IMG/VR virus record: IMGVR_UViG_3300036835_000057
Location: 1-20,622 of that record
Strand: one strand, 5' to 3'
Length of the DNA: 20,622 bases
Source: a virus
How positions within the stretch are numbered: position 1 is the first letter of the stretch; each line of letters opens with the position of its first letter. The notes under the pieces are model-generated. The model was given only the letters and a program-made list of their open reading frames with translations, ran no database searches and had not been told where the DNA came from. Positions 14,179-20,513 of this stretch are shown here, piece by piece. The position numbers were made by a program, and so were the translations under genes.

Positions 14179-14385
14179 TCACAGCAAGTTGGTCAGCACA
14201 TCTTCCACGCGTAGATCAGGACACGTTCCCGGTTCGCACTCACATCTGTAACCAGCGCGCACGATCAGGTCATGCAGTGCGTTGTCACGCACCATCGCCA
14301 GCGACAGAACGTTTGGTCCATCAGCTTCACGGCAGGCCACGTACGCAGCTGCAAACCGGTACGCAGCCACTTCCAAGTCAGTCAT
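14179..14385 (-). CDS. small hypothetical protein with Cys cluster
   Basis: The product is 68 residues starting at ATG 14385 on the minus strand, overlapping the end of the upstream regulator by 8 nt. Most is helical (TDLEVAAYRFAAAYVACREAD). Near the C-terminus lies CECEPGTCPD, a Cys-rich turn that could bind a metal. No family is recognised. It is co-transcribed with the putative regulator and may be its partner. A further in-frame ATG six residues upstream (14403) is possible but would deepen the overlap. The 105 nt between its stop and the hairpin hold no gene that I can see. Confidence 0.6.
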   Translation of the reverse strand: MTDLEVAAYRFAAAYVACREADGPNVLSLAMVRDNALHDLIVRAGYRCECEPGTCPDLRVEDVLTNLL

Positions 14386-15307
14386 GGCTGTTGCCATTGG
14401 CACTGACCGGTATGGCGCGCATCAGCCGATCAATGGCAGCGCGCTGGTCATCATCCAGCGTGAAGTTGGCGCTGATAGAACGCATCTGCTGCGCCATCGT
14501 CTGCACGTTGCTGTCAGCTTGCTTCAGCTGGCGCTGCGACTCGCCTAGTTCCACTCGCAGTGCTTTCACGTGACCAGTACGCACAGTCAGTTCCTGTTCC
14601 AGCTGCTGCACTCTGCGCTTCAGTTGGTCAGTGATCCTGTGCTGGTTCGATAGCTGCGCGGACAGACCTGCGTACTGCAACGCAAGCTTTTCCTCATCAA
14701 GTACCGGCGCGCTCATCACTGCCACACATTCTTGAAGCAGTGCAGTCGCAAGTGCGTGGTAGTCCACTGGTGCTAGGTCAAGATCAGGCAGCCACGGCCG
14801 ATCTTGCATGGCGTCCACGCTGAAGGCCTGTGACGCTTCCTGCGCCGGTTCTGTGGCCTCTGGAACGTCTTGCGCTTCCTCGCTGGCCTCTGGCGCTTCA
14901 GACGGTTCTGGTTCGCTCACAGGGAACCACTCGGCAGGCAACGCATCAGCGTCTATCGCCAGCTGGATTGCGTAGGTGCGCTTGCCACCTTCATTGGTTT
15001 CACGCTTCACCAGTCCTAGCTGTTCCATGTTGCGCAGCACTGGTGTCATACCGGTTGCACCCAAGTTGGCCTTGGTGTCATGCAGTCGCTTGAAGTGACG
15101 CGTGTAGCGGCCATGCAGCTTGCGCGCAGCTTGGCCAGTCTTACGGTCTTCCACGTCACCATCCACTGCTAGCGCAATCAGGATGGCCGCGAAGTTGTGT
15201 GCACCGTTGCTTGGCTGACGTTTTCCGCTAGGCAGTCGCAGAGGCCATACCAATCGGCCATCGTCATCCAGTTCCACCACTAAGTTGGTCCTTCCATTGC
15301 CAGACAT
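14378..15307 (-). CDS. putative winged-helix regulator with C-terminal coiled coil
   Basis: I place the start at ATG 15307, four nt after AAGGTGCGA on the minus strand, giving 309 residues. The frame is open further upstream, but that sequence lies in the divergent control region. Residues about 35-120 look like a winged helix-turn-helix: a helix in NFAAILIALAV, basic KLHGRYTRHFKRLHD, the recognition-type MTPVLRNMEQLGLVKRET and wing GGKRTYAI. Residues 130-165 are an acidic Pro/Glu/Ala linker. Residues about 205-280 form a coiled coil. It is divergent from the integrase, the normal place of an immunity repressor. A plasmid-type partition or replication function is an alternative. Confidence 0.7.
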   Translation of the reverse strand: MSGNGRTNLVVELDDDGRLVWPLRLPSGKRQPSNGAHNFAAILIALAVDGDVEDRKTGQAARKLHGRYTRHFKRLHDTKANLGATGMTPVLRNMEQLGLVKRETNEGGKRTYAIQLAIDADALPAEWFPVSEPEPSEAPEASEEAQDVPEATEPAQEASQAFSVDAMQDRPWLPDLDLAPVDYHALATALLQECVAVMSAPVLDEEKLALQYAGLSAQLSNQHRITDQLKRRVQQLEQELTVRTGHVKALRVELGESQRQLKQADSNVQTMAQQMRSISANFTLDDDQRAAIDRLMRAIPVSANGNSHD

Positions 15308-15311
15308 ACGC

Positions 15312-15320: not shown

Positions 15321-15399
15321 TCGCTGTGAACCAGTGTGGCAGGACCAACAGAGACAGATGCAAGATTGGGCGGGCATGCAGTCGCACCTTCATCCCTGC

Positions 15400-15427
15400 T
15401 GGTCCCACCACCCGCGATGGTCCCACC
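15400..15427. repeat. direct repeat of TGGTCCCACC, candidate operator
   Basis: Two identical decamers start at 15400 and 15418, an 18-bp step. Further TGGTCC/GGACCA hexamers lie nearby at 15286, 15342 and 15558. Their place between divergent regulator and integrase suggests binding sites for the regulator. The hexamer also occurs elsewhere in the window, so only the exact pair is notable. Confidence 0.4.
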
Positions 15428-15481: not shown

Positions 15482-15521
15482 GGTAACGCAGCTTGCACCT
15501 AACGGTGCTGGTTGCGTAACC
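15482..15521. other. attP: candidate phage attachment site (attP), 40-bp imperfect palindrome
   Basis: Centred between 15501 and 15502, 14 of 20 symmetric positions pair. The paired blocks are GGT/ACC, ACGCA/TGCGT and GCACC/GGTGC, around a central TAAC. Serine integrase attP sites are known to be about 40-50 bp imperfect palindromes with a non-palindromic central dinucleotide, often next to the integrase gene. This one ends 61 nt before the integrase start and has AA (or TT) at its centre. It could instead be an operator, because it overlaps a possible integrase promoter. Confidence 0.5.
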
Positions 15522-15567
15522 TGTAGATGACCGCGCGCGCGTGCGCGTGGCGTCACAGGACCAACCA

Positions 15568-15582: not shown

Positions 15583-17145
15583 GTGCAGACCACACAGCAA
15601 GCGCGTGCGAGCAAAGCAGCCATCTACGCAAGACGTTCCAAGGATTTGGAACTGGCAGGCAAGAACGTTGCCAGTCAAGTGCGCGATATGACAGCACTAG
15701 CTGCAAGCAAAGGTGATGACAACATCACTGAAGACCGTATCCACGTGGACAATGACGTGAGTGCTTCCCGGTTCGCACGTAAGCAGCGAACAGCGTGGAA
15801 GGAACTAGTGGCGCAGATCGAAGCAGGCAGCGTCCGGCGCATCTACACACTGTGGTTGAACAGACTGCTGCGACTGCCAATGGAACTGGAACACCTAATC
15901 AATCTTGCGCTGGCAGGCAAGTTTGAAAGCATCATCACTGAAAGCATCACGCTAGACCTGCGCACTCCTGAAGGTCAGATGATGGCGCGCCAGATGGCAG
16001 GCCACGCAGATATGGAAGTGCAGCAGCTGTCTCATCGCATCAAGCGCAAGATGGATGAGAACCGGCGCGAGGGTAAGGCCACGCATGGTGTGGTCAGCTT
16101 TGGATGGCTTGGCACTCGCCATGGCCACAAGGATGACGCTGGCCTGATCCACCATGAAGTTGAAGCAGCACTCATCCGTGAAGCAGCACAGCAAGTGCTT
16201 GCTGGTCGCACGCTGTCAGCCATCGCACGTGAGTGGACAGCAGCTGGCGTGGACCAACCAATGCAGCTGCACAAGTGGGTGAAGGCAGGCAGCAATGGCG
16301 AAAGGCCAACACCCAACTGGATGCCCAACCACATCCAACGTGTGCTGACACTGCCACGTAACGCTGGATACCAGACACATGAAGGTGCAGTGGTTGGTCA
16401 ACCGTGGTCACCCATCTTGGATGCAGACACGTACGCACAGCTGGTGGCGCACTTTGAGCGCAGGAAGTATGGCGCACGTTCTGCGCGCAGTAGCGAGTGG
16501 ACAGGCTTTGTGCGCTGTGGTGGAACCAAGGACGATGGCAGCGTCTGTGGTGCAACCATGCTGTACACACCAGCGAAGAACAACCGTCCAAGTGCTTTCA
16601 AGTGCGCAGCGATAGTTGGGCGCGATGCATGTGGCCACAATGGTGTGAGTGGCCACCACGTAGAACGTCTGGCGCACGACTGGTTGGTGCAGCTGCTGGA
16701 CGATGAGACGATGCGTACGCTGTCCACGGACGATGAAGCAGACACAGCACAGCTGTTCGCACGCTTGCAGCAACTGAACCAGCTGCAAGTTGAACTGGAT
16801 GAAGACCGCGGTAGTGGTGCGATGCCACGTGAGGCCTACAACCGTGCGAGCAAAGCCAACCAGCGTGAAGTGGAAGCAGTGTCACGTGAACTGGCGTCCA
16901 CGTCAGTGCGGAACGCCATGACACCGTACTTGGGTCGCGGTCAGTTCATCCGTGGTGTTCTCGACAGTGGCGATATGACAGCAGACGAACACCGCGCGCT
17001 GTTCCTGGCCACAGGTCAGTTCGCATGGATCAGGCCACAAGGGTTTCGACACAAGCACTTCGATGTCACGCGCGTGGCGTTCAGTGAGGAAGCACCACCG
17101 GAATGGACCACCAAGGTCAGTGACAGCAAGCAGGATGCTGCGTAA
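15583..17145 (+). CDS. int: large serine integrase (site-specific recombinase)
   Basis: From GTG 15583 the enzyme has 520 residues. The N-terminal catalytic domain starts with AAIYARRSKD (nucleophile Ser19, with Arg17/18), followed by VDNDVSASRFARKQRTAW and the VRRIYTLWLNRLLRLPMEL region. A recombinase domain follows, with GKATHGVVSFGWLG and NHIQRVLTLPRNAGY. A zinc ribbon has Cys in RCGG, VCGA, KCAA and ACGH. A coiled coil around LFARLQQLNQLQVELDE should mediate synapsis. Large serine integrases recombine attP with attB without host factors, and need a directionality factor for excision. The typical loop motif DRLxR is replaced by NRLLR. The gene is divergent from the putative regulator and has a hairpin 41 nt after its stop. 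Confidence 0.94.
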   Translation: MQTTQQARASKAAIYARRSKDLELAGKNVASQVRDMTALAASKGDDNITEDRIHVDNDVSASRFARKQRTAWKELVAQIEAGSVRRIYTLWLNRLLRLPMELEHLINLALAGKFESIITESITLDLRTPEGQMMARQMAGHADMEVQQLSHRIKRKMDENRREGKATHGVVSFGWLGTRHGHKDDAGLIHHEVEAALIREAAQQVLAGRTLSAIAREWTAAGVDQPMQLHKWVKAGSNGERPTPNWMPNHIQRVLTLPRNAGYQTHEGAVVGQPWSPILDADTYAQLVAHFERRKYGARSARSSEWTGFVRCGGTKDDGSVCGATMLYTPAKNNRPSAFKCAAIVGRDACGHNGVSGHHVERLAHDWLVQLLDDETMRTLSTDDEADTAQLFARLQQLNQLQVELDEDRGSGAMPREAYNRASKANQREVEAVSRELASTSVRNAMTPYLGRGQFIRGVLDSGDMTADEHRALFLATGQFAWIRPQGFRHKHFDVTRVAFSEEAPPEWTTKVSDSKQDAA

Positions 17146-17186
17146 CGTGTGACACGCCTTCCTTGCACGTAGGTGCGCTGTGAACC

Positions 17187-17225
17187 AGAGGCCTCGCTAC
17201 TCACCTTGCCAGTAGCGAGGCCTCT
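17187..17225. terminator. hairpin after integrase, perfect 14-bp arms
   Basis: Arms 17187-17200 and 17212-17225 are exactly complementary, with an 11-nt loop. The stem contains GAGGCCTC. It begins 41 nt after the integrase stop; there is no U-run. It most likely ends integrase transcription or insulates the early genes at 17381. A small dyad, CGTGT-G-ACACG, lies just after the integrase stop (about 17145-17155). Confidence 0.6.
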
Positions 17226-17368
17226 GCGCGTCCGTACCCTTGATGTAACTAACCCTGTGGGTGCACACTCGCAGACGTTCATGGTGCGAAGAACCCAAGC
17301 CAGCGAGGAAGTGCACGCACGCTGCGCTGCTGTGCTCCGCGCGTTTCTTGCTCGCATGGCAGGCAAGG

Positions 17369-17377
17369 AAGGTGCGA
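17369..17377 (+). promoter_or_regulatory. AAGGTGCGA start-associated motif / RBS
   Basis: The 9-mer, within AAGGAAGGTGCGA, lies 3 nt before ATG 17381. It decides the start of the first early gene; the frame is open for 40 more codons upstream. Confidence 0.55.
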
Positions 17378-17380
17378 ACA

Positions 17381-19039: not shown

Positions 19040-19326
19040 ACCGTGGAAGGCCTCGCACTCATCACACACACAGGATGCGCGCTGGTGACTTGCGCGCGTC
19101 CATGGACGCACTGGAACACCTAGCTGGTGTTGCCAGTGATGAAGCAATCATTGAAGTGGAACGCACTGACTATGAAGACACTGCTGGTTCCTTCAGTCCT
19201 GAAGCACTGAATGAAGCGCGCGACTGCATGGAAGCTTGGGTTATCAGTCGCATACTGCGCCAGTGGAACCAGAGTGGCACTGCACCTAAGCGCATGACCA
19301 TCAGGGTGCGCGTGGTGGTGGCCTGA
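19036..19326 (+). CDS. hypothetical early protein
   Basis: 96 residues starting at ATG 19036 with an ATGA overlap. The basic N-terminus (NRGRPRTHHTHRMRAGDLR) suggests nucleic acid contact. The middle is acidic and helical (SDEAIIEVERTDYEDT, PEALNEARDCMEAWVISRIL) and the end is a basic strand (MTIRVRVVV). It might be a small single-stranded or structural DNA-binding protein. No family is recognised. It lies between the nuclease and the Gp3-like gene, with a TGATG overlap to the latter. Confidence 0.6.
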   Translation: MNRGRPRTHHTHRMRAGDLRASMDALEHLAGVASDEAIIEVERTDYEDTAGSFSPEALNEARDCMEAWVISRILRQWNQSGTAPKRMTIRVRVVVA

Positions 19327-20513
19327 TGTCGCCGATGTTGGATGTACAACGCAGGGTGCATGAAGTTGGACGCATCAGGCTTGGTGTGCAAGGTGCGGAC
19401 CATCCACGTGCACTGTCCACGTTTCGTTTCACGTCTGCGCGCGCTGACCTGATCGCACAGCTTGCTGCGCAACTTGGTGGCGAACCAACGCAGTGGCAAG
19501 GCCAACATGAACTGGTGTCTGATGCGAGCGCACTTGATGTGCTGATACCACCAGCTGATGTTGGGTTCAGTCAGTGGCATGAACTGTGGTCAGCAGCAGG
19601 TTGCCAACGTAGGTGCGACGGATACCGGGAAGTGCTGACTGACCAACCATGTGTGTGCACTGAGGAAGGCCAGCGCAAGTGTGATGACGTAACCCGGTTG
19701 TCTGTGCTGCTTCCTTCACTGCGCACGTTTGGACTGTGGCGCGTCGAAACGCACAGCTGGTATGCAGCAGCCGAACTGCGCAGCGCGATCGAACTTGCGC
19801 TTGGCCTCGCTGCACGTACTGGTGAACATCTTGCACAAGGTGTGCTGCGCATCGAACAGCGCGCGGTGAAGCGACCAGGCCAGTCTGTGCAGCGTTTCAC
19901 GGTGCCAGTGCTGGATGTCGCACTGTCGGCGCAAGCGTTGCCTGAATCGGCGGCAGCGAGGCCTACAGCGTCTGTGAGCGCACGTGACGCGCTCGCTCTG
20001 GTCGCACCAAGCGATGGCGAGGAAGCAGAGTCCACACGTGCACGTGATCGCGGCGCGCCAACTACGCCAGTCACGTCACTGCCACCAGATGAAGACGATG
20101 GTGCGCCACCCACACTGACTGCACATGAACGTGAAGCGCGAGACACAGCGCGTGCGACCCATCCAGCTGCTGATCCTGAGCGCGCACGTTCACTGCGCGC
20201 CATGTTCGCAACCGTCGCCGCGATCCTTCCCGATGCCGACAAGGACGCGCGCAACAGCTTGCGTTACGCACTCGCAGTCATGGTCACCACCAAGACGCGC
20301 GCCGAACAGAACCAACCACCAGCGACCAGTTGGAATGACCTGACCGGTAGGGAACTGGTGAAGGTGGAACAGCTGTTGCGCGATGTGCAGAACGGTGGCA
20401 TGGTCGCGGAGCCACGTGGCGATGGTGGTTGGCACTTCGCACTGCGCAGTGGTCGCAGCTGCGACATCTACCAGGACACCAACGGTGCGTGGACGTACAA
20501 CGTTGCCATTTGA
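19326..20513 (+). CDS. phiC31 Gp3-like protein, candidate recombination directionality factor
   Basis: The first ~200 of 395 residues carry the hallmark order of phiC31 Gp3-like proteins: STFRFTSARADLIAQLAAQLGG, DVLIPPADVGFSQWHELWSAAGCQRRCDG (93-99), a second Cys set (C109, C111, C119), TRLSVLLP (123-130), FGLWRVETHSWYAAAEL, and QRFTVPVLDV. The Cys residues probably bind zinc. In phiC31, Gp3 binds the serine integrase and switches it to excision. Here the protein extends about 150 residues further, through an acidic Pro/Ser/Asp linker, to a C-terminal domain (PERARSLRAMFATV, SWNDLTGRELVKVEQLLRDV, GGWHF). The family also occurs in phages without serine integrases, so a DNA-replication or recombination role cannot be excluded. 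Confidence 0.8.
   Translation: MSPMLDVQRRVHEVGRIRLGVQGADHPRALSTFRFTSARADLIAQLAAQLGGEPTQWQGQHELVSDASALDVLIPPADVGFSQWHELWSAAGCQRRCDGYREVLTDQPCVCTEEGQRKCDDVTRLSVLLPSLRTFGLWRVETHSWYAAAELRSAIELALGLAARTGEHLAQGVLRIEQRAVKRPGQSVQRFTVPVLDVALSAQALPESAAARPTASVSARDALALVAPSDGEEAESTRARDRGAPTTPVTSLPPDEDDGAPPTLTAHEREARDTARATHPAADPERARSLRAMFATVAAILPDADKDARNSLRYALAVMVTTKTRAEQNQPPATSWNDLTGRELVKVEQLLRDVQNGGMVAEPRGDGGWHFALRSGRSCDIYQDTNGAWTYNVAI

Follow-up and report, generated by a model that had tools for sequence, protein, structure and literature searches.

The window analysed here, i.e., the whole 20,622-base virus record, carries terminase, portal, capsid, tape measure and amidase genes together with an exonuclease and a Gp3-like protein. 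A large serine integrase, a class recognized here by recombinase and zinc-ribbon domains that come after a resolvase catalytic domain carrying Ser and Arg residues, is encoded on the plus strand at positions 15583–17145 (int). The initial annotation had placed a serine integrase beside a palindrome, and the profile searches bear this out: PF00239 and PF07508 both score above cut-off, the product falls in PHROG 95, and its profile matches solved integrases. The catalytic residues Ser19, Arg17, Arg94 and Arg97 are retained, as are the aligned Cys residues that bind zinc. Two details of the sequence are less usual. The RxxR motif has an Asn before its first Arg (LNRLLR), where most relatives have Asp and both phiC31 and phiBT1 have Ser, and the first and second zinc cysteines are spaced by 9 residues instead of 2. 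The start codon is most likely the GTG at 15583, because it is preceded by AAAGGTGCGA, a Shine-Dalgarno-like motif that recurs before several genes of the phage; 15541 and 15571 are possible starts. The Shine-Dalgarno-like AAGGTGCGA, found ahead of starts, occurs at window positions 106, 11949, 15313, 15569 and 17370, and helps in the choice of start codons.

Upstream of int, the minus strand carries a divergent gene at 14378–15310. Its product shows MarR-like winged-helix similarity, with weak profile matches only, along with a coiled coil, and is a possible regulator. A 40-bp imperfect inverted repeat (IR1) occupies 15482–15521, within a 272-bp stretch ahead of int that makes up 1.3% of the window. 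The letters of IR1 are GGTAACGCAGCTTGCACCTA followed by ACGGTGCTGGTTGCGTAACC, with the dyad between 15501 and 15502 and AA at the centre. In the symmetry profile, the left half-site (15482–15501) reads TAGGTGCAAGCTGCGTTACC on the minus strand, while the right, int-proximal half-site (15502–15521) is ACGGTGCTGGTTGCGTAACC on the plus strand. Watson-Crick pairing occurs at 14 of 20 positions, in the blocks GGTGC, G, TGCGT and ACC from the centre outward, which occupy positions 3–7, 10, 12–16 and 18–20. On recount, the palindrome of the initial annotation, with its extent, its 14 pairs and its central AA, is exactly as described, and the 61 nt given there from palindrome to integrase start is right if the start is the GTG at 15583; the distance becomes 19 or 49 nt for the in-frame GTG codons at 15541 and 15571, respectively. 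An imperfect dyad of about 40–50 bp with an even centre is the form expected of an attP, and IR1 has this form at the short end of the range; the even centre also fits a 2-bp crossover. The symmetry ends at 20 bp per arm, while the sites of A118, phiJoe and Bxb1 reach about 25, a difference that speaks against an attP. The intergenic region contains other repeats as well, namely a direct repeat, TGGTCCCAC, at 15391–15426 with 18-bp spacing, and CAGGACCAAC at 15340 and 15556, both of which are possible regulator or origin sites.

How unusual IR1 appears depends on the measure and on the stretch over which it is taken. The strict count of 14 pairs in 20 is found at two other sites in the window and is reached in most simulated windows, so that the raw symmetry on which the annotation had relied is not rare over the window; the same count is, however, reached in only about 2.5% of 240-bp regions. 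A palindrome score based on squared run lengths was not significant for IR1 (P 0.12). By an in-register dyad score, in which G.T pairs are allowed and the central 4 nt are left out, IR1 is the best dyad over all window positions, with 14 Watson-Crick and 2 G.T pairs of 18, corresponding to a P of about 0.001 per 272-bp region and 0.07 per window. This score was picked post hoc, after the IR1 fold had been seen, and it was therefore checked against known attP sites.

The attP positions of phiJoe and phiBT1 are annotated in their records, whereas those of phiC31, Bxb1 and A118 are taken from our own dyad scans and general knowledge. The attP of phiC31 ranks 1 of 5,492 positions by the in-register score, with a nearly identical value, that of phiJoe 1 of 18,942 (14 Watson-Crick and 2 G.T pairs, a score identical to that of IR1), that of phiBT1 5 of 6,832, and that of Bxb1 16 of 5,001. 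For phiJoe, the dyad centre obtained from the score is the annotated crossover pair. The score is only moderately informative when applied to 15 further integrase loci: about half of them have their best upstream dyad among the top three, and some of the dyads so ranked resemble terminators.

Comparison with individual phages places IR1 in a familiar setting. The phiC31 attP resembles IR1 in its upstream position and in its TT/AA centre, and its arm blocks lie at 4–6, 9 and 11–19 from the centre, nearly the distances observed in IR1. Both phages also encode a Gp3-like protein. The integrases, however, are about 18% identical, the site sequences differ, and the phiC31 site is proven while IR1 is a candidate. 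In phiJoe (PMC5311408; KX815338), the space between int and a divergent gene likewise holds, close to int, an imperfect inverted repeat; this attP, located 18 bp before int, had been predicted in a like manner and was later confirmed (PMC5311408). Its symmetry of 25 bp per arm is longer than that of IR1, its integrase is about 19% identical to that of the window in alignment, and its divergent gene is the RDF, unlike that of the window. The blocks of IR1 are closer to the centre than those of A118 or Bxb1. In the A118-family LI integrase, the zinc-domain motif is at 16–24 in attP and 5 bp further inward in attB (PMC3783163).

The Gp3-like protein of the window (395 aa, plus strand, 19326–20513) matches PF18897 with an E value of 1.7e-35 over residues 14–198. 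This family takes its name from the phiC31 directionality factor. The gene lies in the exonuclease operon, and the protein has an extra C-terminal half. Judged by its sequence, it is a possible RDF, although the role is uncertain because a relative in the Microcystis phage MinS1 sits beside tyrosine integrases, and the name of the family may therefore not imply an RDF.

The position of IR1 between two divergent genes could also be that of an operator in a divergent promoter region, bound by the product of 14378–15310 or by another phage regulator and controlling both that gene and int. The weak MarR-like similarity of the product agrees with this, since such proteins bind dyads, and the motif GTGCNNGNNGCGTNAC, common to both arms of IR1, recurs once more at 15541–15556. 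That recurrence falls within a second inverted repeat abutting IR1 (IR2, 15520–15559) and is weak evidence for a common binding protein. On the other hand, a site of 40 bp in which each arm has two separate blocks is long for one winged helix-turn-helix dimer, about 170 bp lie between IR1 and the closest start of the divergent gene, the window holds no second full copy of the dyad, and the enrichment of the half-motif is within composition. We thus regard an operator as unlikely. Enrichment of TGCGTNACC had been considered as a sign of many operators and was rejected, being within base-composition expectation.

The three strongest hairpins of the window, 17187–17226, 15520–15559 and 15482–15521 in that order, are all beside int, and the first two had been overlooked in the initial annotation. 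The strongest, on the plus strand downstream of int, has perfect 15-bp arms and an odd centre; it is not followed by a T-tract and is probably a terminator of the actinobacterial type. IR2 is a bulged, CG-rich repeat that may be a weaker rival attP or an RNA hairpin in the int leader. IR1 and IR2 might act as a pair of RNA hairpins in that leader, restricting int at the level of transcription or translation. Their folds are strong (z about -5 and -4.7, respectively), and terminator-like hairpins were found upstream of int in other actinophages. However, no T-tract of the kind that marks an intrinsic terminator follows IR1 on either strand, IR1 is missing from the terminator scan, and known attP sites fold equally well, those of phiC31, phiJoe and phiBT1 having fold energies similar to that of IR1. 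A role of the two repeats as leader hairpins consequently seems rather improbable.

The side of int on which attP is to be expected was examined in related integrative elements. Overall identity to the closest integrases found is about 30%, rising to about 39% at most where only part of the protein is compared. In G039, from the Microbacteriaceae family set, the host sequence is interrupted at GCCGTT (L098 1936–1941), just ahead of int, and continues from 6546, where these six bases are repeated; the element is thus a 4.6-kb insert (L098 1936–6551), and the host sequence is intact in three relatives. In G135, from the same set, a 3.4-kb insert (L112 2389–5758, reverse complement) with a serine integrase sits within a single copy of a multi-copy gene; the shared core, CCCCGTT, is again found just before int. 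An HNH-like stretch was recognized by eye in the target genes of both. In G197, host homology ends about 190 nt before int is reached; the region in common between G197 and a related element in G373 starts about 30 nt upstream of int. The junctions in the three dissected actinobacterial elements are therefore upstream of int, and, judged from these sequences, attP is directly upstream of int in this integrase group, as the initial annotation had assumed. IR1 adjoins int on this same side.

The elements in G039 and G135 resemble the window in having the att junction directly upstream of int, with integrases that are among the closest found, about 30% identical to that of the window. They differ in their small size (4.6 and 3.4 kb) and their insertion in HNH-type genes, and their attP is less palindromic and has a different motif. 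The attP and attB of both were rebuilt from attL and attR, and each rebuilt attP is a weak palindrome with 9–10 Watson-Crick pairs of 18. A strong palindrome is thus not required, and the palindrome of IR1 is by itself no proof.

Since a genuine attP can be weakly palindromic, the site might lie elsewhere near int, e.g., at IR2 or in the downstream gap at 17146–17380, with IR1 incidental. In favour of IR2 are its second place among the hairpins and its contact with a possible int start, a contact that attP also makes in G039 and G135; our own scan placed the attP-like dyad of A118 on the downstream side of int. Yet the in-register dyad of IR2 ranks only 59 and rests on a CG run, the odd centre of the 17187–17226 hairpin is at odds with a 2-bp crossover, and the upstream side is used in 3/3 dissected relatives. 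Such a location appears very unlikely.

No lysogen, attB or attL/attR hybrid of the phage or of a close relative was found in the collections searched. Across IMG/VR, GTDB contigs, phage records and about 1,200 genomes, from which records very near the window may be left out, no integrase relative exceeded about 40% identity, and the integrase, terminase, capsid and Gp3-like protein all had no close relatives. Whole-dyad and half-site pattern searches of IMG/VR returned a perfect hairpin in an unrelated large phage and two further matches that were dismissed as chance, in coding or near-coding DNA of unrelated phages.

The attP reading starts from observation: there is an integrase gene, and there is a dyad whose rank and position are established. 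Location and form support it, and IR1 (15482–15521) is probably the attP of this phage. Of the initial proposal to this effect, what stands is the match in place and shape to proven actinophage attP sites (PMC5311408) and the use of the same side of int in related lysogens. By analogy with the family, we infer that the integrase binds IR1, that crossover occurs at its centre, and that IR1 is used as attP. A dimer of the integrase would bind the two half-sites through its recombinase and zinc-ribbon domains, and the IR1-bound dimer would pair with a dimer on the host attB. Cleavage of both sites at the central AA/TT, staggered by 2 bp, would be followed by an exchange of ends. One end of the resulting prophage would then carry int beside the right half-site, and its other end the divergent gene 14378–15310 beside the left half-site.

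A more far-reaching proposal is that the serine integrase is an orphan, far removed from every integrase found in the collections searched, and that it has an attP of its own with half-sites of about 20 bp; IR2, which shares a half-site motif, could then serve the integrase as an additional binding site through which int or directionality is regulated. We consider this a long shot. Read as attP, IR1 is a fresh example of a well-known arrangement in a phage without close relatives. The arrangement is biologically expected. If the reading is true, it would fix the integration site for such a phage, and would add a new, probably orthogonal integrase/attP pair of the type used as genome-engineering tools.
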